Of a stretch of 64,000 nt of DNA, positions 10,278-63,547 are shown piece by piece. The notes below the pieces were generated by a model, which was not told the origin of the DNA, did not search any database, and was given only the letters and a program-made list of their open reading frames with translations. The position numbers and the translations under genes are program-made. The first letter of the stretch is position 1; each line of letters begins with the position of its first letter. The DNA is from a virus, in the IMG/VR virus record IMGVR_UViG_3300044630_004815, positions 1 through 64,000 of that record. One strand, written 5' to 3'.

Positions 10278-10655
10278 TTAATTACTTCTATAGATCTTCT
10301 CTAAAGAGTCTCTTGCGGCATCCACATGAGATATAAGACCCATATTCTTTGTAATCTTTAATTGTGAACTACTTCTAGTAAATTTCCTATGCATGGAAAT
10401 AATCCTAGAATCTTTAACTTCAGTGATTGTAATTATTTTATCAAAATCAATAATGAACATTTCATCATCAGATATGTTCACCCAGGGAATAACTTTATAT
10501 CCCATAGTTTTATTTGATTTAGATTGGATATGAGTAATTACTACTGGATTATCTAATAGTAAAAATCTCTTATCATCTTCTTCAGATAGACAAACTAAAG
10601 CAAATACTTCTTCACCTGAAATTAATTTAATTGTTGCATAAAAGTCTTCTTCCAT
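10278..10655 (-). CDS. Sm-like small protein downstream of uvsW (125 aa)
   Basis: Function unknown. The beta pattern ATIKLISGEEVFALV, LLLDNPVVITHI and IDFDKIITITEVKDSRIISMH parallels the 97-aa protein at 2200-2493, which has a similar opening, the same DNP element and a TI-E tail. The two are therefore probably paralogs. The resemblance to Sm/LSm folds is a judgement by eye. It shares a TAATG junction with uvsW, so it is likely translationally coupled. About 140 nt separate it from gp55. Confidence 0.75.
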   Translation of the reverse strand: MEEDFYATIKLISGEEVFALVCLSEEDDKRFLLLDNPVVITHIQSKSNKTMGYKVIPWVNISDDEMFIIDFDKIITITEVKDSRIISMHRKFTRSSSQLKITKNMGLISHVDAARDSLEKIYRSN

Positions 10656-12118
10656 TATTTTTTAAAGTTGATTGTAATGATTTCATAATCAAAGTTTTCT
10701 TCATTGTAAATTTTAATTCTTTCAATTAAATGATTCAATGTATAATTTTTCTTTGATTTATATTTAATTTCATCAGCAATATCATATAGAGTTGCTGAAG
10801 ATTTCTCTTTTCCTTTTCTTAAAACTCTTCCGATAGATTGTAGATTTCTTATTCTTGATTTGGAAGGTGATGCGAAGACAACATTGTGTAAGTTTCTAAT
10901 ATTGATACCTGTACTAAAAGTGCCATAAGAAGCAACAATAATCGCATTTGATTGTTCCTCGGTAATTTTTCTTACCATTTCTCTTTCTTCAGTATCCACT
11001 CCACCATGAATAAAAAATATTTTTCTATCTTCACTGGCATCTTTATTTATTAATTCATAGAGGGGTTCTCCATGAGTTGCAACCCTATTAAACAATACCA
11101 AAGTATTTCCTTTAAGATCTAAAACTAGATTTTTAATAAAATTATTTCTACGTTCATGTCCAATTAAATATTGAACTTCTTCTTCATAGTCATTAAATTC
11201 ATGCTCTGGATGTGATAGAAGAAGAACTTTAATTTTTAACTGAGATAGGTATCCCTTTTTAATAAGATCATCTGTTTTAATTAATTTGTAAGTAGGACCA
11301 AATAATCCCTCAAGTACCAGTTTGTGAGTTTGAGATCCATCAAGTGTTCCAGTAAATCCAAATCTATATTTTGCATCATGCAATTTATCCATGATACTAA
11401 TCAATGATTTAGATTTGAATTGATGTGCCTCATCTCCAATTACTACGTCATAGTTTTGGAAATATGATTTATCTAATTTGTAAATAGATTGCCATGTAGA
11501 TATTGTAACTGGTTTCTCTGCCTCTCTAGACATTCCTCCATATATTTTATGGCAATATGTCTCAGCATTCCATCCATAGTCTTCAAAGTCCTTATACATC
11601 TGTTCTACCAATGATGTGGTTGGGACTACCAACAATATATTCATTCCCCTCTCTACAAAGTATCTGACTACAGAATAAATCATCAATGATTTGCCTGATG
11701 CAGTTGGGGATAGTAATAACTTTCTTTTGTATTTTAATGCATCATGAACTCCTTGGATTTGATAGTCCCTTGGTTCGTGACTGCAAATACTTTTCATATA
11801 ATCTCTCACACCCTCCATTGAAATAGAATCATCTATCTCTCCAGGAAGACCATAATATTTGTTTTGATTAAATTCAAAGTTATAGTTGTGATTCTCGCAG
11901 AATGTGATAAGTTTATCCAGTAGTCCAGAATAGATTTCTCCAGTCTGAATATTGAATAAACGTATTTTACCATCCCAGTGCTTACTTCTATATTGAGGCA
12001 TAAACTTTGCACCAGGCACATCAAATGTAAATTGATCACTCAATTCATATTTAATATGAGGTTCACATTCGACCTTCAGATAGATTTCATTCTTTTTAGA
12101 TATGATAAGATCAGACAT
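10655..12118 (-). CDS. uvsW: UvsW RNA-DNA/DNA helicase (487 aa)
   Basis: SF2 helicase that in T4 unwinds R-loops and branched DNA and helps switch from origin-dependent to recombination-dependent replication. Motif I SPTASGKS is at residues 137-144, motif II DEAH at 228-231, motif III FTGT follows, and motif VI QSIGRVLRKG is near the C-terminus. Length is close to T4 UvsW (503 aa). The N-terminal beta domain includes PQYRSKHWDGKIRLFN. It lies directly after uvsY. Confidence 0.97.
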   Translation of the reverse strand: MSDLIISKKNEIYLKVECEPHIKYELSDQFTFDVPGAKFMPQYRSKHWDGKIRLFNIQTGEIYSGLLDKLITFCENHNYNFEFNQNKYYGLPGEIDDSISMEGVRDYMKSICSHEPRDYQIQGVHDALKYKRKLLLSPTASGKSLMIYSVVRYFVERGMNILLVVPTTSLVEQMYKDFEDYGWNAETYCHKIYGGMSREAEKPVTISTWQSIYKLDKSYFQNYDVVIGDEAHQFKSKSLISIMDKLHDAKYRFGFTGTLDGSQTHKLVLEGLFGPTYKLIKTDDLIKKGYLSQLKIKVLLLSHPEHEFNDYEEEVQYLIGHERRNNFIKNLVLDLKGNTLVLFNRVATHGEPLYELINKDASEDRKIFFIHGGVDTEEREMVRKITEEQSNAIIVASYGTFSTGINIRNLHNVVFASPSKSRIRNLQSIGRVLRKGKEKSSATLYDIADEIKYKSKKNYTLNHLIERIKIYNEENFDYEIITINFKK

Positions 12119-19174: not shown

Positions 19175-19198
19175 AAATAACCTCAAAAAATTATAAAC

Positions 19199-19206
19199 TA
19201 TTTATA
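19199..19206 (-). promoter_or_regulatory. Late promoter TATAAATA before the post-portal genes
   Basis: Exact TATAAATA on the minus strand, overlapping the gp20 stop region, 25 nt upstream of the 55-aa gene. It would allow separate late expression of the prohead-core block. Confidence 0.78.
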
Positions 19207-20869
19207 TCTCTGCTGCCTTGCTGTTTATATTCATATCCTTATTGGATGATCCCATATCAGGTTCCATTGGAACTTGTCCAAGCATTTGTCCATTCATACC
19301 AGGAACCATCGGTTGTCCATCTGGACCAATAGGGGGCATAAGTTTAGGATCTGGATATAAACCATCCTTAATTTCTTCCTTCATTAATTCATTCTCATCG
19401 ACGATTTCTTGGTCTGTTTGACGAAGAATCTTACGTCTCACATAGTCTTGTGAATAATAAGTGCCAATGTATGGTTGAATTGCAACCATCAAATTGAGTC
19501 TTTCATTCATCAACTCAGTATCTTTAAGTTCAGAAAAATGACCATCATATAAGTAATCATATTGAATATGATCACTCATCTTCTGCCAATCTTCTGGAGT
19601 TATAATATTCTTCAGAATGAGTTGAGTCTTTAGCATATCGTGAAAAAGACCACTAAATCTCTTTCTTAATCTTCCAACAAACTTACCAAACATCAATTCA
19701 TCTCTAAGAATCTCTGAAGATCTTCCTAGATTAAATCCTTCATCTGAAGCAGTTCTAGATTCTGGAACATTCAGTGCTCTGAATAATTTCTTTTGGAAAT
19801 ATTGAACATCGGTCAACTCTCCAAGATTCTGTCCACCAGGAAGAGTAGTGATCTCAGTGCCTCTACCACCCTCTCTACGGGGCAGCCAGAAGTCTTCCAT
19901 CATACTCATAAACTTCTTGTCATCACGCATTTCACCAGTGTTTGCGTCATAAACAAGTTTATTACGATATCTACCCATAACATCACGTAGATATTGCTCT
20001 GCCTTTACTTTAGGTAGATTGCCAACATCGATGTAGAAGATTCTTCTTTCTGGTGCTCTAGAAAGTCTGTAGATAACAAGAGCATCCTCAATCATCCTAA
20101 GTTGATTCAGTGCTTTAATTGCTTTATGTAAATATGAAAGTGTCAGTTGTCTATTTCTATCTACAAGACCTGAAGTTACATACGTAATAGAATCCCTTGC
20201 AATTTTCACACCACGATTAGTTGAACCAACCTTTTGAATAGATCCCTGAGGGTAATACATAAAGTATTCCTCAATCTCTGGTTCAGTGAATGCTGTCATA
20301 CTATTGGGATCTATACTATTAAGATAGTTTCCTCCAAGATTGACTTTGGTATCTTTCTTCTTTTCTTGTCTAATAAATCGAACTTTCAATGCGTCCATAT
20401 AACGAATATCTAAAATTCCTTCCTCAGGTTTTTTTAGATCGATAACTTTATGATATAATAATCTTCCGTCGATATACCAGTTTTTAAATATTTCGTGTGC
20501 CTTTTTGTCGAAATCTAAAAGATCTTTAATATATTTAAATTCTTCTCTGATAATCTTTTTGAGTCCATCACTTGCATTAAGATTACTCAGTTCAATTTCA
20601 ACTGGAGAATCATTCAAGTCACTTACAATTGCCTCATTGACAACATTTTCAATTGCACTATCACATTCTGGGTGAAGTGCCATTTCCCTATATCTTTTAA
20701 TTAAATCGTATTCATTCCTGAATACTCCTTCAATATCTACATATTGCCCATAAAAACCACTAGTCAGATAATAGTCAGCCCCGTCCTCGTTATTTTCGGG
20801 GACAGGGGAGACCGCACCTTTTGGTAATTTATCGTCGTCTTCAATAGAGAAACCAAATAGTCTTGCCAT
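19202..20869 (-). CDS. 20: Portal vertex protein gp20 (555 aa)
   Basis: Dodecameric portal through which DNA is packaged and to which the neck joins. The length is close to T4 gp20 (524 aa). Recognised features are the IKRYREMALHPECDSAIENVVNEAIV segment, the GRLLYHKVIDLKKPEEGI region, the central RRIFYIDVGNLPKVKAEQYLRDVM and the ALNVPESR stretch. The C-terminal 50 residues are Pro/Gly/Met-rich. It follows gp19 and precedes the prohead core genes. Confidence 0.97.
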   Translation of the reverse strand: MARLFGFSIEDDDKLPKGAVSPVPENNEDGADYYLTSGFYGQYVDIEGVFRNEYDLIKRYREMALHPECDSAIENVVNEAIVSDLNDSPVEIELSNLNASDGLKKIIREEFKYIKDLLDFDKKAHEIFKNWYIDGRLLYHKVIDLKKPEEGILDIRYMDALKVRFIRQEKKKDTKVNLGGNYLNSIDPNSMTAFTEPEIEEYFMYYPQGSIQKVGSTNRGVKIARDSITYVTSGLVDRNRQLTLSYLHKAIKALNQLRMIEDALVIYRLSRAPERRIFYIDVGNLPKVKAEQYLRDVMGRYRNKLVYDANTGEMRDDKKFMSMMEDFWLPRREGGRGTEITTLPGGQNLGELTDVQYFQKKLFRALNVPESRTASDEGFNLGRSSEILRDELMFGKFVGRLRKRFSGLFHDMLKTQLILKNIITPEDWQKMSDHIQYDYLYDGHFSELKDTELMNERLNLMVAIQPYIGTYYSQDYVRRKILRQTDQEIVDENELMKEEIKDGLYPDPKLMPPIGPDGQPMVPGMNGQMLGQVPMEPDMGSSNKDMNINSKAAEI

Positions 20870-44500: not shown

Positions 44501-47500
44501 TTTGATTTTTATAAACTGTTAGTTTTGGATTATTTGACGAATCTACTCTAAGTTTTGCAGTTGCTGAATTATAATTGATAGAAAATACAACAGTGGATCC
44601 TGTAATAACATTTAAACGTATTACATCACTTAAAGATAATCCATGAGATGATGCAGTGGATACTATAGATTCATTATATAAAATATTTCCAGTAACTACA
44701 GATCTATCTGTTACCAGTTTGTGGAGGTGTCCTGCACCAGAATCATTAAAATATAATAATCCATCGGCAGAACTAATCTTAGTCTTATCATTAGTAAATC
44801 CAATAATATCATTTCCCAAATCTACAATGTATAAATTTGGAATTTCGTCAATGTATGTTCCAGAATTTAAATTGGTCTGCATACTAAAACCATTTGGATC
44901 CATGAAGTATGTCACCTTTTCACCATTCTTAAATTTGTGATTTGGCATCCAAATCCCAGCAGTTCTTATAAATCTTGTTTCAGATTTTCCTTGCCCATAA
45001 GGAGTTTTTGTAATGGTATTTCCAGATCCAGGAGTAGTTCCAATTCCAACAGAAATTAAATCAGAATCAAAATAATAGACTTCATTTTTTACGGATAGAT
45101 CTAATTTTTGATTTAAATTAAATTGGAACTTATTTGATAATAATTCAACTTCGGATTGTGATGCTGCTGAATTAGAATCATTTTCTCTTAAGACTGTTAT
45201 TGAATTGTTTAAATAATCAAATCCAACAACATTTAGTATTTCTGTTCCTATTTTAATTTTTGAATCAATATCAAAATTAGTTATAGAATCGGTAATTGTT
45301 ATTGAAGTTAAAATACCACTGTTTGCTGGCAATTCTTTAGTTAATTTGGATTTAAATTGCTTAAATGCAATTTTTTTGGTTCCTTCCAATGATGAATATG
45401 CTGATGAAGATATTCCAGTTATATTGATATAATAATTGTCTTTTATATTAAGAGTTGTAGAAGCAATTCCAGTAACAACATTATTTGTCTGGACAAACGT
45501 AACTTGAGATTCTGAGAGTGTTTGTGAAGATATGCTTGTTATTCCAACACCCATTAATTCACTGACTTCTGCAGATGCTCCAAATCCACCTGTCACTTCA
45601 TTATTGAAGATAATTTTATCTCCAATAGAATATCCATTACCAGAAGAAACTACTTCAATATCATCAACTGTTCCACTTAAAGTACTTAATACAGTAAGAT
45701 CTTCCTTATAAATGTTTGGATAGAAGTCAAAATAATCATAATAATTTTCTTTATCTTGAATATAATATGGAAATGTGTGCTTAACAATATCTAAAGTATT
45801 AAAATCTAAATCTTGACTATAATTTAAATCTAAATTGTCTTCAACTAGTGAATAATTATATTCTGGACCAATAAAATATGGGAAAGTAGATGTTGCAAAA
45901 TATGCATAAACCCCATTTGGATACTCTGGAGTAATGCAATATCTTCCATTGTTTTCATCTAGTGTGCCAAGATCTTTAACGAAAGTATAGTCTTCTATGC
46001 AATCAAGATTTGAAGACTCTGAAATTATAGGTGATTTTCTAATCTTTCTATAACTACTTGTCATTTTAATGATATCACCACTTCCATCTACATTTTCATA
46101 TGCATATGGACCATAAATTGGACATCCATCATATGACCAACCAATGATTGGAGAATGAGAATTGCTTGTAATATTAAAATTTCCTGATAGAGTTGGAGTT
46201 AAATAATATATTCCTATATTATTTTTGTTCTGATAATAGTTTTCTCCAACCAATAATCCACGATTTAAAATTGTACTTGAATATTTCGATACTTCATTAA
46301 GAGTCCAATATTTAATATTTGCTTTAAATTCTGCACCAGACCCTTCATTTTTTGCTAATAATTTTGTATACTGGTCATATCCAATTCCAGAACTAATAAC
46401 TTTAATCTCTGTGATTTGACCGTCTACAATGACTGGATGAAGTTTTGCTCCTACTCCAGATCCAATGACTTCAATATTTACTGTATTATAATATCCATAC
46501 CCAGGATTGAAAATAATAACTCTCACAATCTTTCCATTTGAAATGATTGGTTTAAAGGAAGCAGATTTTCCTTTAACTAAATCAATTTTGGGAGCATATT
46601 CGTAGTTAAATATATTAGAACCATATTGTTCAGAATTAATTATATTAACTTTACTTATAGATCCCTTTACTTTTGGATATAATTCTGCAGAGGATCCAAT
46701 GGTTGAAATTCCTAATGTACTTAATCTTCCAGTAATTTCAGTTCTAATTGGGGAATATGAAAAATAATGAATACTAGTAGAATTTGAAGCATTAATGATA
46801 ATAGGAGTATTCAAATCCTTAGTTGAGGACAGTTTAAATTTGTCATCATCAATTTTGATGACATAATAGTATTGAGATGTATTTAATATAGAATTGCCAG
46901 TGTATGAGTATGAAATTTCATCCCCAGAAACAAATCCATGATTTTCAAATTCAAATATTTCATCATAATGATTAATATTTGCCTTCTTTAATGGAAGTTT
47001 CTTATATTTAAATTGAGTTTCTATATCAATGATATTAACAGAATCTACAACATTTACTAATTTCACTGAAGTAAACTTTTGAAGTCCCTTTCCACGAGTT
47101 CTTAAATTTATAGTTCCAATTCCAGCAAAGGCATCCTCTTTAGTATTTGCCAATCTAAATGATGTTCCTGCTCCAACATCAAAAATATAATAGATTGAAT
47201 TATTGGAAAGAAATTCAGTTCCAGTTCCAATTCCAATTGGAGTGTTGCCAAAAGTCTCATAAATTACACCATCTCCAGGGAATAGTTTATGAGGATAGTC
47301 AAGAATAAATTTATTAATCGGATCTAAAGTAACGACAACATCAGAATCATCTGCATTAAAAGAAAGTTCTCTTTGAACCTTCTTCATTTTTACTTCTGTT
47401 CTTACTGAATCATTTCCACCACCTTTTACCGTAACTATGGGAGTCTCAATATAATCAAATCCAGAATCAATTACTGCAATTGATTCGATATCTCCACTTA

Positions 47501-49824: not shown

Positions 49825-51699
49825 TTAGTTTCTTATTTTTGACTCTGTGGTATAACTCGATTCTGGAACAAATCTGCTTCCAGATGCATTTTCACCAGAT
49901 GATATAATATCTTTTGTGAGAGTAATATTACTGCTTCCTACATCAAGTTTTAAGTAAACTGATTTCTTAGCAATAATATCATTTGAATATGGAGTTGCTT
50001 CAATTTGAATGATGTTGTTTGGTACTAGAGTAGAACTCACATTTATATTATCTATATTGATTTCACCAGTAATATAATCAACCGTTCCAACAGTATTTGA
50101 TTGAATTACAACTTCATTATTTTTCAATGAGAATAAGAATAATGATCCTGTTTTTAAATCAGAATTTGGTTTATCTGAAATATAAACAGTTTCTGTGTTT
50201 CCTTGAATCTTGAATCCAGTCGTTCTTATATTGTAACCACTTGTAGAAGCATTAAATCTATTTTCAAAACACACCTCATAATTTGCTGGACCAGATACTA
50301 CACCAATATTTCTTCTAATCTTAATTCGAGTAATGTTTGATGTAATTGAATTACTTGTTGAATCGATTATTCTAAGTGATTTACTATATTTAAATCTTCC
50401 TCCAAACTTATTCAGGTCAGAAGAATTGGAATATGTATCTAAAGAATTATAAATTCTTGATTCTAAATCACTTACAGACCCGACTAGATTTGAATTATAA
50501 TAAATTGTAGAATCCATTTCTACGTACAATACGTTAATATCAACAAATTTAACTTTAATACCTGCCACAGAATACTGTTTCAGAGAATTTAAAATTGTTT
50601 GTTTTGTAAATTCTGACAGGTAATCAGAATTTTTTGGTTTTACTGCCAAATACACTGTCCCATATTGTGGTGGGGATAGTTCTTCACCTCCATATGCGGT
50701 CACAGACTCTATATTTGGGTAGATTGAAGGCAATAGTGCCTCATAGTCATTTGCAGTAACTGCTCGGTATTGGGAAGAATACAGTCTTGGAGCATAGTAT
50801 CTTACAGATTCTACAGATTGAATGCTATCTCCATTTGATGCAGACTCATTTGTGATAACGGATCCCGCATTTCCACTTAAATTTGTTGTATTATTTCCAA
50901 AAATGGTTCCAGAGAATGTAAAGTTGGATGGTCCATTGCCATCTTTTCCATCAGTAGTGATATAAGTTACGGTAATTGTGCTTTGATCTTCTGGTTTTTT
51001 GCCAAAAATCCCATCCCCAAAGAAAATTTCATACTTTTCATCAGAAACTTCGTGAACTAAAAATACTTGAGACTCAGAATTTACTCCAATTATGTTATCA
51101 ATGTATGAATATTCAGAAGTTGTACCAGATTTTTCTACTTTTACTCGAATTGTAGAGGTATCGATGTAAGGATTTGGTAAAATATACTTCTGATTGGGTT
51201 GTGAATTATCAATAGTAAAGGTTTTTGTTAAAAAAGTTCCTTGATAAATGTCTATTTCATTAAAAAGTGCTTCTTGCTCATCAACTCCTACAGTAATATC
51301 TTCTGGAATTGAAAAAATAAAGGTAGTATTATCCTGATTTCCTGTGCAAACAATTCCTGCCTTTAGTGTTGCAGTTTTAATTGCAGTATTTGTAATACCA
51401 GTTACATTAAAAGAAATATTTGCCTTTGCTGCTCGTCTAGAAAGGGGTACAAACCCTATGTTCCTTGCAAGAGATACAACGTTCTCTCTTAGGGTAGCAC
51501 TGTCCAGGAATGCCTCATTGGCAACCATATTGCTGTTATACGCAGTCAAATATGTGTTGTATGCAAGAATGTCAATTAGAACCGATAGATTAGATCCTTC
51601 AAAGTCAAAGTCAGTGAAAGTACTATTTGCTCTGAGATAATCTTTAATGGATGACTTTACTAGATCAAAGTCTAGATTTGTGAATTGAGTAAATTCCAT
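49825..51699 (-). CDS. 6: Baseplate wedge protein gp6 (624 aa)
   Basis: Wedge protein of the baseplate ring, J-family core. Recognised from LDFDLVKSSIKDYLRANSTFTDFDFEGSNLSVLIDILAYNTYLTAYNSNMVANEAFLDSATLRENVVSLARNIG and from GDGIFGKKP. Length matches T4 gp6 (660 aa). It touches gp25 with a 1-nt overlap at 51699. Confidence 0.97.
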   Translation of the reverse strand: MEFTQFTNLDFDLVKSSIKDYLRANSTFTDFDFEGSNLSVLIDILAYNTYLTAYNSNMVANEAFLDSATLRENVVSLARNIGFVPLSRRAAKANISFNVTGITNTAIKTATLKAGIVCTGNQDNTTFIFSIPEDITVGVDEQEALFNEIDIYQGTFLTKTFTIDNSQPNQKYILPNPYIDTSTIRVKVEKSGTTSEYSYIDNIIGVNSESQVFLVHEVSDEKYEIFFGDGIFGKKPEDQSTITVTYITTDGKDGNGPSNFTFSGTIFGNNTTNLSGNAGSVITNESASNGDSIQSVESVRYYAPRLYSSQYRAVTANDYEALLPSIYPNIESVTAYGGEELSPPQYGTVYLAVKPKNSDYLSEFTKQTILNSLKQYSVAGIKVKFVDINVLYVEMDSTIYYNSNLVGSVSDLESRIYNSLDTYSNSSDLNKFGGRFKYSKSLRIIDSTSNSITSNITRIKIRRNIGVVSGPANYEVCFENRFNASTSGYNIRTTGFKIQGNTETVYISDKPNSDLKTGSLFLFSLKNNEVVIQSNTVGTVDYITGEINIDNINVSSTLVPNNIIQIEATPYSNDIIAKKSVYLKLDVGSSNITLTKDIISSGENASGSRFVPESSYTTESKIRN

Positions 51700-52106
51700 T
51701 AGTATCTTGTTGGTTGTAATACAAAGGTTATTGCTTGTGTAGGAACAGCAAGTCCAACTATATCATAAACAATATACACTTCGAGTTCATTCTCATCTGG
51801 TCGTAAATTAACATTTACTTGCCTTAATATTACTCTAGGTTCGAAATTTGTAATTGTAGTTCTAATTTCTTCAGTAATTGGATCTACAACTTGACTATCT
51901 GCAAGTTCAAATAACATATTCTCAACATTAGAACCTAAGAGTCGGTTAAAAAATCTTTCCCCGACTCTAGTTCTAACTAAATTCATCACAGATCTTTTAA
52001 TTGCATCCTCATTCGTGAGAACAGCAATATCATTCGTTACAGGATGTCTTTTGAAGGACAAACTGACATCTTTAAAATATTTTGATACTGCGATTTCTAC
52101 TGGCAC
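51699..52106 (-). CDS. 25: Baseplate wedge protein gp25, GTG start (135 aa)
   Basis: Lysozyme-like-fold baseplate protein that joins wedge and sheath. The frame begins at GTG with PVEIAVSKYFKDVSLSFKRHP; no strong Shine-Dalgarno is visible. KRSVMNLVRTRVGERFFNRLLGSNVENMLFE is the family signature. Length matches T4 gp25 (132 aa). A CAATAAATA late box lies 22 nt upstream. Confidence 0.95.
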   Translation of the reverse strand: MPVEIAVSKYFKDVSLSFKRHPVTNDIAVLTNEDAIKRSVMNLVRTRVGERFFNRLLGSNVENMLFELADSQVVDPITEEIRTTITNFEPRVILRQVNVNLRPDENELEVYIVYDIVGLAVPTQAITFVLQPTRY

Positions 52107-53810: not shown

Positions 53811-54149
53811 TCACTCACAATCTATCTCCACACCATCAGTAAGATCTTTTAGTCTATCAAATAAATCTTGATTTAGTGGAATAAGTTCCGTCTTACCAGT
53901 CTCCACATCATCTACCAGTTGTTGCAGATACTCCAGAAAGTGCCTGGGATAGGTATTGTCTTCCCCAAGAGACACCCAGAACCATTCATAACATTCTGTG
54001 TAAGGGTCATCACTAGGAAGCAGTCCATAGTCCTTGTAGTTGCCTGTCATCAGATCTGCCCATATTCTATAAGCTCCTCTGATAGATTGCCACCCAGTCA
54101 TCCAACAATGACCTATCCAGTATTCCCACCAGTTGATTTTACTAGTCAT
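53811..54149 (-). CDS. Hypothetical protein rich in Trp and Asp (112 aa)
   Basis: Function unknown. The start MTSKINWWEYWIGHCW is chosen because GAGGT lies 5 nt upstream; a start four codons earlier is possible. Eight Trp residues, several in the first 40 positions (WWEYWIGHCWMTGWQSIRGAYRIW), suggest a membrane or protein interaction surface. The C-terminus is acidic. Confidence 0.6.
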   Translation of the reverse strand: MTSKINWWEYWIGHCWMTGWQSIRGAYRIWADLMTGNYKDYGLLPSDDPYTECYEWFWVSLGEDNTYPRHFLEYLQQLVDDVETGKTELIPLNQDLFDRLKDLTDGVEIDCE

Positions 54150-54306
54150 CACATACCTCACAGTTGATAATTAAAAATTCTTCTAATTGAAAATCTGTGG
54201 AAAACCCTGCACTAATCATATTGTGAATATCTGTGAGAGCACCCTGGCATTGTGCCAAGTCACCTTCACAAAATACACGATCTCTTGCAATCAACCTATA
54301 GACCAT
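54142..54306 (-). CDS. Hypothetical small protein (54 aa, start uncertain)
   Basis: Function unknown. The preferred start MVYRLIARDRVF follows a weak GGA; the frame is open to a GTG at 54375, giving 77 aa. The sequence includes CEGDLAQCQGALTDIHNMI and an LEEFLIINCEVCDD end with two Cys. It overlaps the following gene by 8 nt. Confidence 0.5.
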   Translation of the reverse strand: MVYRLIARDRVFCEGDLAQCQGALTDIHNMISAGFSTDFQLEEFLIINCEVCDD

Positions 54307-54585
54307 TTTTTCCATCAGAAATTTTTTTATATATGTTCCATCCAAGTATCTTTGAGGTCTCCCACAGGCAAACACTAATATAACTCACCTCATCCCAAGG
54401 ACTTGTCTCTGTGCCCCACACAGTATTATACAAAAACCTCACAGGAGTTTTTTTACCCCAAAAAATTTTTTTAAGCATTTGAAATCACTCTCTCGATTTG
54501 TCACCTCTGTAGGTTGGATAGGACCCTTTTTTTATAAATCGCATTACCGCATAATATAATACAACAACCCCCGATATAACTGTCG

Positions 54586-54629
54586 ATGGACGAATCAGAA
54601 TACTGCTCTATAATTATGCACGAAGTGCA
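54586..54629 (+). promoter_or_regulatory. Candidate plus-strand promoter with palindrome
   Basis: TGGACG, 16-bp spacer, TATAAT at 54609-54614, followed by TGCAC-GAA-GTGCA (54617-54629). It would transcribe against all genes into the repeat-rich region. Confidence 0.4.
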
Positions 54630-54670
54630 AGTATAAACAATAGACTGTCAAATAGTACTGTCACGAGGTC

Positions 54671-54737
54671 CTCACAGACTCACAGTTATTAACTCACAGT
54701 GGACTCACAGTTGTTTATATTCACTGCTGTCTCACAG
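54671..54737. repeat. Five CTCACAG iterons
   Basis: CTCACAG at 54671, 54679, 54693, 54704 and 54731, several as ACTCACAGTT. Spacings are 8, 14, 11 and 27 nt. The direct repeats suggest a protein-binding array. Confidence 0.7.
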
Positions 54738-54953
54738 TTATCATACATCAGATGACGTATTCTGTCAACCCTGTAATACCAAGTGCATAAGTAATGCCCC
54801 TATATGACTATTAAGAACACGAAAAGTTGGGATATACCTATAACTTGTCAGAGGACTATTACAGGTCATTCTAGACACCTCTCAGTGTATTATACTAACA
54901 CGAATTGAGGACGTATTTGATAACGTCAAAATGGACGATATAGGGGTATAAAG

Positions 54954-55008
54954 TTTTCCACAGGTTTTTCCACAGGTTTTTATAAGTTTTCCACAGGGTT
55001 GTGGAAAA
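54954..55008. repeat. Cluster of four DnaA-box-like TTTTCCACA sites
   Basis: TTTTCCACA at 54954-54962, 54966-54974 and 54987-54995, plus inverted TGTGGAAAA at 55000-55008. The last two form a perfect palindrome with a GGGT centre. The TTTTCCACA form is the DnaA-box type reported for Synechococcus elongatus. Confidence 0.7.
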
Positions 55009-55195
55009 CTATCTGTCACAAGGGGTATTGACAGATCTCGGAGTTTGTGATACATTGTGGGCCAAGATCACAAGAACATGAGGCATTTACATACATTCTC
55101 ACACAATAACAAATCATTCACATTTACCTCACAATTATACACAGCAAACAAATAAACACATCACAAACACTTGAAATGGACGATATAGGTACACA

Positions 55196-55217
55196 TTCTC
55201 CACAGGGTTGTGGAAAA
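55196..55217. repeat. Second DnaA-box-like palindrome
   Basis: TTCTCCACA-GGGT-TGTGGAAAA repeats the palindrome at 54987-55008 with one change; 22 bases (55200-55221) are identical to 54991-55012. Confidence 0.68.
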
Positions 55218-55263
55218 CTATAACCATTTTATTTACACATTAAAATAAAACAATAAGTATAAC

Positions 55264-55491
55264 TTATTCTCCGCAATGCAATGATTGAATGTATACAATA
55301 TCATCATACAATGCATTACAATAATGATATTCTACCCATACTGATTCATCATTCATCCATTCATCTTTACTCATTGCATCATTATACTCTCTGAGTCTAA
55401 GCATTGATAGTCCTCGAATCACTCTATCAATATCACTGGGATGAAGAGTAATACGAATACCATTCTCAAACCTTACATAATCATCAGTCAT
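55264..55491 (-). CDS. Hypothetical protein bordering the repeat-rich region (75 aa)
   Basis: Function unknown. It begins MTDDYVRFENGIRITLHPSDIDR and is acidic with aromatic residues. It overlaps the upstream 30-aa gene by 4 nt (ATGA) and is the last gene before the gene-free region. Confidence 0.6.
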   Translation of the reverse strand: MTDDYVRFENGIRITLHPSDIDRVIRGLSMLRLREYNDAMSKDEWMNDESVWVEYHYCNALYDDIVYIQSLHCGE

Positions 55492-57323: not shown

Positions 57324-57770
57324 TCAATACTCAGTGTCAAAAACAAAACCATTGTTATAAACACAACCGAGATTCTCGAAAGTGTTTTCCCAATCAATCT
57401 CAACAAAAGAAGGGAACTCAACAGAATAACAATCAGTCACATAGTTTTCTGCATACTGTGCTTTAGAATCCCATTCTCCACGGTAAGCATCCATAAATCC
57501 ACCAAGTTCATCAACACCAAACTCTTCAATGAAAGTATCTACTGCATTGTAAGAGTAAGTTTCACCTGCATCGACATACTCATCATAATGAGCACAGAAA
57601 GAATCAACACCGTGTTCTTGAATGAACTCAAGCATATCATCAATGTAGAAGTTTTCATCAATGAAATCTTGAATCTGATCTACTACCATTTCATCGAGAA
57701 CTTGCTTATAGTTCTCACTGGTAAGATCAGAGTAATCTACAGTTTCTTTCACGTTCGGAAGGGAGATCAT
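57324..57770 (-). CDS. ArdA-like antirestriction candidate (148 aa)
   Basis: Possible DNA-mimic inhibitor of type I restriction. The C-terminal half has AYRGEWDS (95-102), an AQYAENYV helix, then IDWENTFENLG (125-135) and GFVFDT, the pattern of ArdA proteins: an acidic AYxGE-DS stretch, an IDWE-type helix and a VF ending. The protein is strikingly acidic throughout. The N-terminal 80 residues do not match clearly. It sits behind promoter module copy 2 and is the first gene of a short operon. Function is inferred from pattern only. Confidence 0.55.
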   Translation of the reverse strand: MISLPNVKETVDYSDLTSENYKQVLDEMVVDQIQDFIDENFYIDDMLEFIQEHGVDSFCAHYDEYVDAGETYSYNAVDTFIEEFGVDELGGFMDAYRGEWDSKAQYAENYVTDCYSVEFPSFVEIDWENTFENLGCVYNNGFVFDTEY

Positions 57771-58739: not shown

Positions 58740-58817
58740 CTTTGCTTGTGTCCCTGTATTATAGGGCATCAGGGGGCACTGTGCTCATTTAGTGTGCCAC
58801 TAGAACAAGTGGCACAT
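58740..58817 (-). promoter_or_regulatory. Intergenic punctuation module, copy 3 (78 bp exact repeat)
   Basis: Identical over 78 bases to 61388-61465. It contains the inverted repeat at 58793-58816, a TATAAT -10 (58758-58763) 15 bp after the 39-bp core, and abuts the helicase stop codon. A TAAATGAGCACAG box takes the place of a -35. Confidence 0.75.
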
Positions 58818-60049
58818 CATACACACAACTCACCCCTCACAAAGATAGCATTTACCACACTTTCAAGTTGACGAGCAATCTTGTCACCATAGTTATTCTG
58901 CACAGGAACAGTAATAGTGCCAAATGGTTTCTTATAAAATGCAAACTCACCTGCCTTCATCTTACCATCTGCAATTGCTTTACGGTCATCCTTGTTCATA
59001 CGAATCACACGACCAATAGTTTGTGCCATCTCAATGATAGGAAGATTGCGAAGCATAATGCAATGAGTCAGACCGTGAACATTCATACCCTCAGACAAGA
59101 TGCTGTAATGAAATACAATGAACTTCTTATCAGGATCAGCACCAAACTCATTCATCTTGTCAAAGAATACTTCACGAGACACTTTCTGTTTGTCGATATA
59201 AGCACCATGCTTAGAAGTGATGTGCATAATTGTATAACCCATATCATTGAGTTGTTGAAGCAGATCACTCTCAGTAAACATTGCCCAGATTACTTTAGTG
59301 CTAGGAGCAGCAACAAGAACCTTAGGAACAGTATTCTCATCAATCTCTGAAAGAATACCAACAATGTTCTCTGCATCTACAAATGCAGCATTTTCCTTTG
59401 TGCGAATCGTTTGTGCTTCATAAGGCACAATCTTAGGAGGAATGATGCTGCCAGCATCAATCAGTTCTTGTGCAGGAATAGAGATAATCTTCTCACCATA
59501 CACATCAGTATTGTTCATCGACTCCTTGTTATTGTTGAACTTAGGAGTCGCAGTGAAGAAATAAGCATTGTCTGCAACTGCAGATGTATGAGCAATACCT
59601 ACAAAGTTAGATGGTTTCACACAATGGTGTGCTTCATCGAAATACACAATATCAATTTCAATGTTTGCTTCATTCACACGACCAATCGAATTGTAAGTGG
59701 TGAAGATAAAGTGATGCTTTCCACTTCCGATTGCAGTGTCATTGTATTCTGCAATGACAGATGAACGTGTAGAGGATTGATGATGAGTTTCTCCACTATG
59801 AACGTGCATGTAAGAAACATTTTGGTCTTCGAGATAGTCTTCGAACTCTGAACAGAGTTGATTTGCAAGAAGAATACGAGGTGCGACAACAACAATCGTC
59901 AGAGGATTATCTGCGATTGCAAGTCGATATTTTACATCTTCCATCATTACGACAGTTTTACCACCACCAGTAGGAATATAAACTGTTCCCTTGGAATGTT
60001 CTTTAATGGCATCAAGAGTGCGTTGTTGATAAGGAAGGAGAGTCAGCAT
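58817..60049 (-). CDS. SF2 DEAD/DEAH-box helicase (410 aa)
   Basis: ATP-dependent helicase or translocase of the type found in cyanophages; target unknown. Motif I PTGGGKT is at residues 28-34 (long frame numbering), DEAH at 140-143, FTATP near 172 and QTIGRVIRM near 349. MLTLLPYQQRTL is preferred over a start two codons earlier. The 5' end is preceded by a TATAAT box; the 3' stop abuts module copy 3. Confidence 0.9.
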   Translation of the reverse strand: MLTLLPYQQRTLDAIKEHSKGTVYIPTGGGKTVVMMEDVKYRLAIADNPLTIVVVAPRILLANQLCSEFEDYLEDQNVSYMHVHSGETHHQSSTRSSVIAEYNDTAIGSGKHHFIFTTYNSIGRVNEANIEIDIVYFDEAHHCVKPSNFVGIAHTSAVADNAYFFTATPKFNNNKESMNNTDVYGEKIISIPAQELIDAGSIIPPKIVPYEAQTIRTKENAAFVDAENIVGILSEIDENTVPKVLVAAPSTKVIWAMFTESDLLQQLNDMGYTIMHITSKHGAYIDKQKVSREVFFDKMNEFGADPDKKFIVFHYSILSEGMNVHGLTHCIMLRNLPIIEMAQTIGRVIRMNKDDRKAIADGKMKAGEFAFYKKPFGTITVPVQNNYGDKIARQLESVVNAIFVRGELCV

Positions 60050-60062
60050 CAGCAATCAATTC

Positions 60063-63375: not shown

Positions 63376-63389
63376 TGTTATAAAAATAA

Positions 63390-63463
63390 CGGGTTAGGAG
63401 GGACTCGAACCCCCGACCAATTCATTAGAAGTGAATTGCTCTATCCATCTGAGCTACTAACCC
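63390..63463 (-). tRNA. tRNA-Arg (UCU)
   Basis: Cloverleaf of 74 nt on the minus strand. GGGTTAG pairs with CTAACCC; the anticodon loop CTTCTAA, flanked by ATTCA/TGAAT, gives UCU. The D-arm AGCTCAGATGGATAGAGC and T-arm GGGGGTTCGAGTCCCTC are canonical. tRNA-Arg(UCU) is common in T4-like cyanophages. Confidence 0.95.
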
Positions 63464-63547
63464 ATAGACCCTCTGGTTTGTGCATTGTTAAGAGGCATAG
63501 AGGGTGTGGGACTTACTTAAAGTTTGGACCTTTAATGCCCCTAGAAA
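63464..63547. other. Short gap with inverted repeat
   Basis: ACCCTCT and AGAGGGT flank a 24-nt loop directly upstream of the tRNA on the minus strand. No gene and no T-run; possible processing or leader structure. Confidence 0.35.

Follow-up and report, generated by a model that had tools for sequence, protein, structure and literature searches.

DnaA boxes and a conserved promoter-like element at one locus upstream of gp25 in T4-type cyanophages: a candidate replication origin assisted by host DnaA

The stretch of DNA analyzed here (the window, 64,000 nucleotides) is part of the 70,209-bp IMG/VR record IMGVR_UViG_3300044630_004815, which carries T4-type structural genes: gp25, gp6 (49825-51699), portal, and major head protein. 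Upstream of gp25 is a gene-free stretch bounded by two small ORFs (Table 1). A reading made earlier from the letters alone (the sequence-only reading) had given its extent as 54376-55263. This holds for about 54479-55263; the interval as first given is partly coding, because the ORF on the gp25 side is conserved in relatives (tblastn identity of 54-98% in six of them and 39% in locus L217). The leader of this ORF contains a second conserved block, ACTACCCTAACCTACA(AA/GA)GGT, at 54500-54540 in the window and at 46550-46590 in P-SSM7, and the block is also present in ACG-2014d and in loci L222, L227, and L234. Several CTCACAGTT(G/A)TT-like repeats at 54660-54745, between the ORF and the box array, may be a second set of binding sites. 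On the far side from gp25 is a gene for an SF2 helicase, which is found in the same order in most phages compared, with 43-53% identity in many cyanophages. It is distinct from the UvsW of the record (10655-12118), which has the UvsW_N domain. On that side also, a protein encoded at 57324-57770 (minus strand) matches phrog_36653, annotated as an anti-restriction protein (E 4.9e-22). The ORF at 53811-54161 was dropped as a synteny anchor since the gene is mobile and not syntenic, and gp25 was taken instead.

Table 1. Coordinates of the features at the locus (positions in the window)
Feature	Position	Strand	Basis or remark
gp25 baseplate wedge, positional anchor	51699..52106	-	phrog_261 E 1.7e-49; module 2.9 kb upstream
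Conserved small ORF, 60 aa, gp25-side boundary of gene-free stretch	54296..54478	-	tblastn
AAATGGACGATATAGG copy 1	54929..54944	+	exact
DnaA box TTTTCCACA, upstream array box 1	54954..54962	+	exact match
DnaA box TTTTCCACA, upstream array box 2	54966..54974	+	exact match; 12 bp after box 1
DnaA box TTTTCCACA, upstream array box 3, left arm of first GGGT palindrome	54987..54995	+	exact match; 21 bp after box 2
DnaA box TTTTCCACA, right arm of first GGGT palindrome	55000..55008	-	exact match
Conserved element of about 75 bp, predicted promoter plus leader	55022..55097	+	model R1 E 4.6e-17; sole copy in its own 70 kb record
Predicted -35 hexamer, TTGACA	55028..55033	+	conserved as TTGAC[A/T]
Predicted extended -10, TGA + TACATT (-10 = 55051-55056)	55048..55056	+	TG before second hexamer; 17-bp spacer
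Conserved leader GGGCCAAGATCACAAGAACATGAGGCATTTAC, right after -10	55059..55090	+	alignments
AAATGGACGATATAGG copy 2	55174..55189	+	exact; related copies also in locus L215
DnaA-box variant TTCTCCACA, left arm of pair downstream of promoter	55196..55204	+	
DnaA box TTTTCCACA, right arm of downstream pair	55209..55217	-	exact match
Terminator-like stem, then T-rich tail (weak)	55206..55225	+	1 found vs 0.6 expected
Small ORF, 75 aa, other-side boundary of gene-free stretch	55264..55491	-	96% identity in L210
SF2 helicase (not UvsW), opposite side of module from gp25	58817..60055	-	Pfam

The six sites claimed for the gene-free stretch were all located: a span of 264 bp holds five exact copies of TTTTCCACA and one of TTCTCCACA. 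Exact TTTTCCACA occurs six times in the window, always inside 54196-55217, against a shuffling expectation of 1.65 for the whole window; the extra copy, at 54196 on the minus strand, is within a coding ORF. In 300 dinucleotide shuffles of the window, the maximum number of exact sites per such span was two, a value reached in six of the shuffles. The cluster, which matches the consensus of host DnaA, is beyond chance. The two palindromes centered on GGGT (54987-55008 and 55196-55217) are real; they match at 21 of 22 positions and have in common a 23-base identical run, TCCACAGGGTTGTGGAAAACTAT. The duplicated element reported beside them, AAATGGACGATATAGG, is exact in both copies.

Box arrays printed side by side revealed a conserved element of about 75 bp adjoining them, which is absent from the sequence-only reading. 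Aligned, the element has the form TTGAC[A/T]-N17-TANNNT, then GCYAAGAYYACAA-N10-CACATTTA, where N10 stands for about ten variable bases. An HMM of the element, built from 25 phages, gave 134 matches in the loci searched, 99 of them non-redundant and with the promoter pattern TTGAC[A/T]-N14-TGN-TANNNT plus leader; its best match on reversed sequences had an E value of 0.51. By these motifs the element is a predicted sigma70-type promoter with an extended -10, the mark of which, a G two positions ahead of the -10, occurs in 81 of 86 phage sequences. The spacer count is biased to 17 by a scoring preference; the -35 and -10 nevertheless align column by column. The element has marine and freshwater types, set apart by a 14-bp indel that follows the -35. 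With 17-bp spacing, the marine type has in many phages TAAGAC or TAAGCC as its -10, a poor match to TATAAT, and the promoter activity of this type is therefore less certain.

In the window, the predicted promoter is on the plus strand, antisense to every neighboring gene, and points away from gp25. The upstream array is located 20 bp before the -35; on the downstream side, a distance of about 130 bp separates the promoter start from the second box pair. The predicted transcript is G-poor (C exceeds G in 80% of the sequences), and conservation of the element fades after about 60 nt. The terminator-like stem, weak as it is, could end an antisense transcript of about 165 nt. Folding of the region as a single sequence gave a z of -1.7, RNAalifold found zero conserved pairs among 19 sequences, and Rfam assigned the region to no family, returning only a sub-threshold chance match to a snoRNA. 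An RNA hairpin or terminator was also considered as the main cause of the palindrome and was rejected, since many modules have direct, helically phased boxes instead; the palindrome stem, with T before it and A after it, has the wrong polarity for a terminator.

A search of related cyanophage genomes, suggested in the sequence-only reading, shows that the boxes recur upstream of gp25 across the Kyanoviridae. By blastn, 54948-55014 gave 154 hits among 50,697 phage records, 110 of them cyanophages by name. Of 19 complete Kyanoviridae genomes tested, 16 have one module at a distance of 2.9-8.8 kb upstream of gp25, as do dozens of IMG/VR contigs; the module as usually found consists of helically spaced DnaA boxes (about 2-8 of them) together with the conserved element. 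It is absent from the other three of the 19 (ACG-2014f, P-SSM2, and ME01). The array lies several kb upstream of gp25-gp6 in DSL-LC03, P-SSM7, S-PM2, Syn1, S-RIM44, and S-CAM1. Scans of whole records for exact boxes found scattered single sites and clusters at one locus, in Syn9, S-RIM12, Syn30, ACG-2014d, and S-RIM8 as well. The module is at 52.6 kb in Syn9, about 19.2-19.35 kb in S-PM2, and 41.7-41.8 kb in S-RIM8. The same scans found no exact clusters in S-CAM9, ACG-2014f, P-SSM2, ME01, P-HM2, ACG-2014h, T4, or VR5. In every genome that has box clusters they are upstream of gp25, as they are in the IMG/VR contigs, and the distance was confirmed by locating gp25 in S-SZBM1, DSL-LC02, Syn9, and eight contigs. 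There is one locus per genome, and its position is conserved. The 19 cyanophages are a biased sample, in that eight were picked from BLAST hits (two via a neighboring gene and six via box similarity). Among ten genomes from an evenly spread list of gp25 matches plus Syn9, clusters were found in 5 of 11, all upstream of gp25.

The element was also sought in whole genomes with a model of its sequence only. One confident copy was found at the expected place in 16 of the 19 cyanophages, and none in T4 or its relative VR5. Four of the 16 were outside model building, and two of these four gave weak matches (P-HM2, E 0.02; S-SZBM1, E 0.05), both at the expected place. Extra weak matches occur elsewhere in S-CAM9 (E 0.003) and ACG-2014h (E 0.03). 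Since the genomes of S-CAM9, P-HM2, and ACG-2014h and some contigs (L233 and L238) have the element without an exact box cluster, the boxes appear to be its common partner and not indispensable to it. In S-CAM9 (L457), about 5.9-6.0 kb upstream of gp25, direct repeats of GAGCACTTTAC are found downstream of the element instead of boxes, and they resemble copies of the element's own CACATTTA part. In S-PM2 (L206, AJ630128), tRNA-Asn and tRNA-Leu are annotated over the DnaA boxes at 19177-19333; these coordinates seem to be shifted, because ARAGORN finds no tRNA in AJ630128 between 16500 and 20000.

The association of boxes and element was followed in at least 120 IMG/VR stretches fetched solely by the pattern TTTTCCACA-N0-12-TGTGGAAAA, a few of the 120 listed having fed the element HMM. 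Four-base spacers dominate the inverted pairs among the matches listed, GGGT/ACCC being the commonest. The element is present in 64 of the 120 matches listed, and it is within 300 bp of the pair in 53, compared with about 8% expected by chance from the stretch lengths. Relative to the promoter, the pair is on the downstream side in 32 of these listed matches and on the upstream side in the others.

The 9-mer TTTTCCACA is the cyanobacterial DnaA-box consensus, for which binding has been assayed in Anabaena and Cyanothece (PMC4674748, PMC3480399). Same-strand boxes in the phages are spaced with peaks at 11-12, 20-22, 32-33, and 42-44 bp, and in cyanobacterial genomes same-strand TTTTCCACA spacing is mostly 11-12 and 20-22 bp. 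Such spacing, like that of host arrays, would be expected if binding were cooperative and kept to one face of the helix. The tight palindrome with GGGT at its center is not a host-like arrangement, however: of 146 genomes sampled from the cyanobacterial phylum, 1 has an inverted pair with the 13-bp offset, and this arrangement is a trait of the phages. A search for the Bac_DnaA_C domain found none in 22 phages and was positive in 10 of 10 control genomes. The box consensus, the host-like same-strand spacing, and the lack of a phage-encoded DnaA make host DnaA the natural candidate for the binding protein, and together with the recurrence of the sites in relatives they uphold the earlier description of them as cyanobacterial DnaA boxes.

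DnaA boxes beside a promoter or initiator sites are known from P1 oriR, λ, F, and pSC101, that is, from temperate phages or plasmids with an initiator of their own. The host boxes are alike in the present case, but the phage is lytic, T4-type, and without a recognized initiator. The oriC regions of Synechococcus elongatus, Anabaena, and Cyanothece, often found beside dnaN, share with the phage module the box consensus and a same-strand spacing of 11-12 and 20-22 bp. The module differs from them in having tight inverted pairs, which are nearly absent from host genomes, in lacking dnaN, dnaA, and a GC-skew switch, and in the conserved predicted promoter that runs through it. With T4 oriF, or ori(uvsY), it has in common a place near gene 25 and, judging from sequence, a promoter transcribing into the putative origin. 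However, T4 has no DnaA-box cluster (two scattered exact sites) and no element, and its oriF lies between uvsY and 25, whereas the cyanophage module is 2.9-8.8 kb upstream of 25, between gp25 and the SF2 helicase, with its promoter pointing away from gp25. In T4, UvsW unwinds R-loops at origins, and one may speculate by analogy that the SF2 helicase beside the module is relevant to the origin. For Syn9, Weigele et al. (2007, cited in PMC2984593) predicted a single theta origin, and exactly one module was found in that phage, which does not imply that the two positions coincide. The review PMC2984593 does not mention DnaA boxes or state the position of the predicted origin.

With somewhat better than even confidence, we regard the region as the single replication origin of this phage and of most of its family, assisted by host DnaA and coupled to transcription. 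A strong promoter of the early type, at which host RNA polymerase would start early in infection, would have phased TTTTCCACA boxes occupied by host DnaA on one side of it or on both. Transcription, antisense to the surrounding genes, would proceed to the downstream box pair through the segment to which DnaA is bound, and DnaA and the moving polymerase together could open the segment. The transcript would supply an RNA primer or help in opening the duplex, after which the helicase, primase, and polymerase of the phage would load and take over. Later on, as in T4, replication would depend on recombination. We infer from the sequences that DnaA binding, transcription, and a replication start take place here, and in this order.

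The proposal in the sequence-only reading that the region is a candidate origin gains from the recurrence upstream of gp25; the AT-rich flank, which had been part of that proposal, and GC skew add nothing to it. In duplex stability the least stable 60 bp rank at the 84th-99th percentile, but the flank does not stand out significantly (empirical p of 0.21 for the window and of 0.16 combined over seven sequences). No GC-skew switch was found at the module in six genomes, which counts against an origin, the test being a weak one in that gene orientation dominates the skew and recombination-dependent replication would blur it. Because of the missing skew switch and the unexceptional flank, we only infer the start of replication itself.

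The region might instead be a DnaA-responsive regulatory promoter, at which DnaA would activate or block a short antisense RNA that times early genes or senses host replication, with no replication start. We consider this rather unlikely. The element varies less than the boxes and is retained where they are missing, the boxes lie close to the promoter on either side (in the window, 20 bp separate the upstream ones from the -35), the leader is conserved, and the terminator-like stem could end an RNA of about 165 nt, all of which such a promoter would explain; however, no conserved RNA structure was found in 19 sequences and no Rfam family for the region, the conservation fades after about 60 nt, and an origin coupled to transcription would be just as likely to give such a transcript. 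A DnaA sink, a datA-like array that titrates host DnaA and so stops initiation on the host chromosome, would also suit boxes that are clustered and spaced as in the host, and a lytic phage could plausibly gain from it. One small cluster per genome, of about 2-8 boxes, is few for this purpose, and a sink needs neither a conserved promoter nor a fixed position; this reading is improbable.

It is quite improbable that the boxes serve a protein other than DnaA, either a phage-encoded initiator or another host protein preferring TTTTCCACA, in an origin or a regulator that works without DnaA. That just 1 of 146 cyanobacterial genomes has the tight inverted pair with its 13-bp offset, and that S-CAM9 has GAGCACTTTAC repeats at the box position of the others, would agree with such a protein, but the 9-mer is identical to the published cyanobacterial DnaA box and its same-strand spacing is that of host arrays. 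An injection stop or packaging-related signal is highly improbable: T4-type headful genomes are circularly permuted, and a signal here would thus have no fixed distance from a genome end. The comparison is with a region of T5, whose proposed injection stop signal is likewise described as having repeats, palindromes, and DnaA boxes, but no counterpart of the conserved promoter element is named for it (PMC13250531).

The DnaA-assisted, transcription-coupled origin would extend a known kind of origin to phages of the T4 type, for which the use of DnaA is undescribed as far as the literature searched shows; nor did that literature yield a previous account of such boxes in cyanophages. In its general form, that lytic replication of most T4-type cyanophages begins at a single origin dependent on host DnaA and equipped with a dedicated antisense promoter, the proposal has a little less than an even chance. 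If true, it would be a new mode for T4-type phages and would tie phage DNA synthesis to the replication-licensing state of the host and, through DnaA, to its cell cycle and light-dependent growth. The ocean contains T4-type cyanophages in very large numbers, and a candidate origin that occurs once per genome in them, with exact coordinates in cultured phages, is directly testable.

Elsewhere in the window, an abiF RNA is encoded at 63468-63504 on the minus strand (Rfam RF03085, 48.8 bits against a cut-off of 37), directly 5' of tRNA-Arg (63389-63464). A search for the Abi_2 protein (PF07751) found it in none of six records carrying the RNA, most of which are fragments. The RNA may accordingly be an orphan that neutralizes an AbiF-type defense of the host. 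It is also present in 5 of 33 other cyanophage records, namely S-SZBM1 and four IMG/VR contigs.
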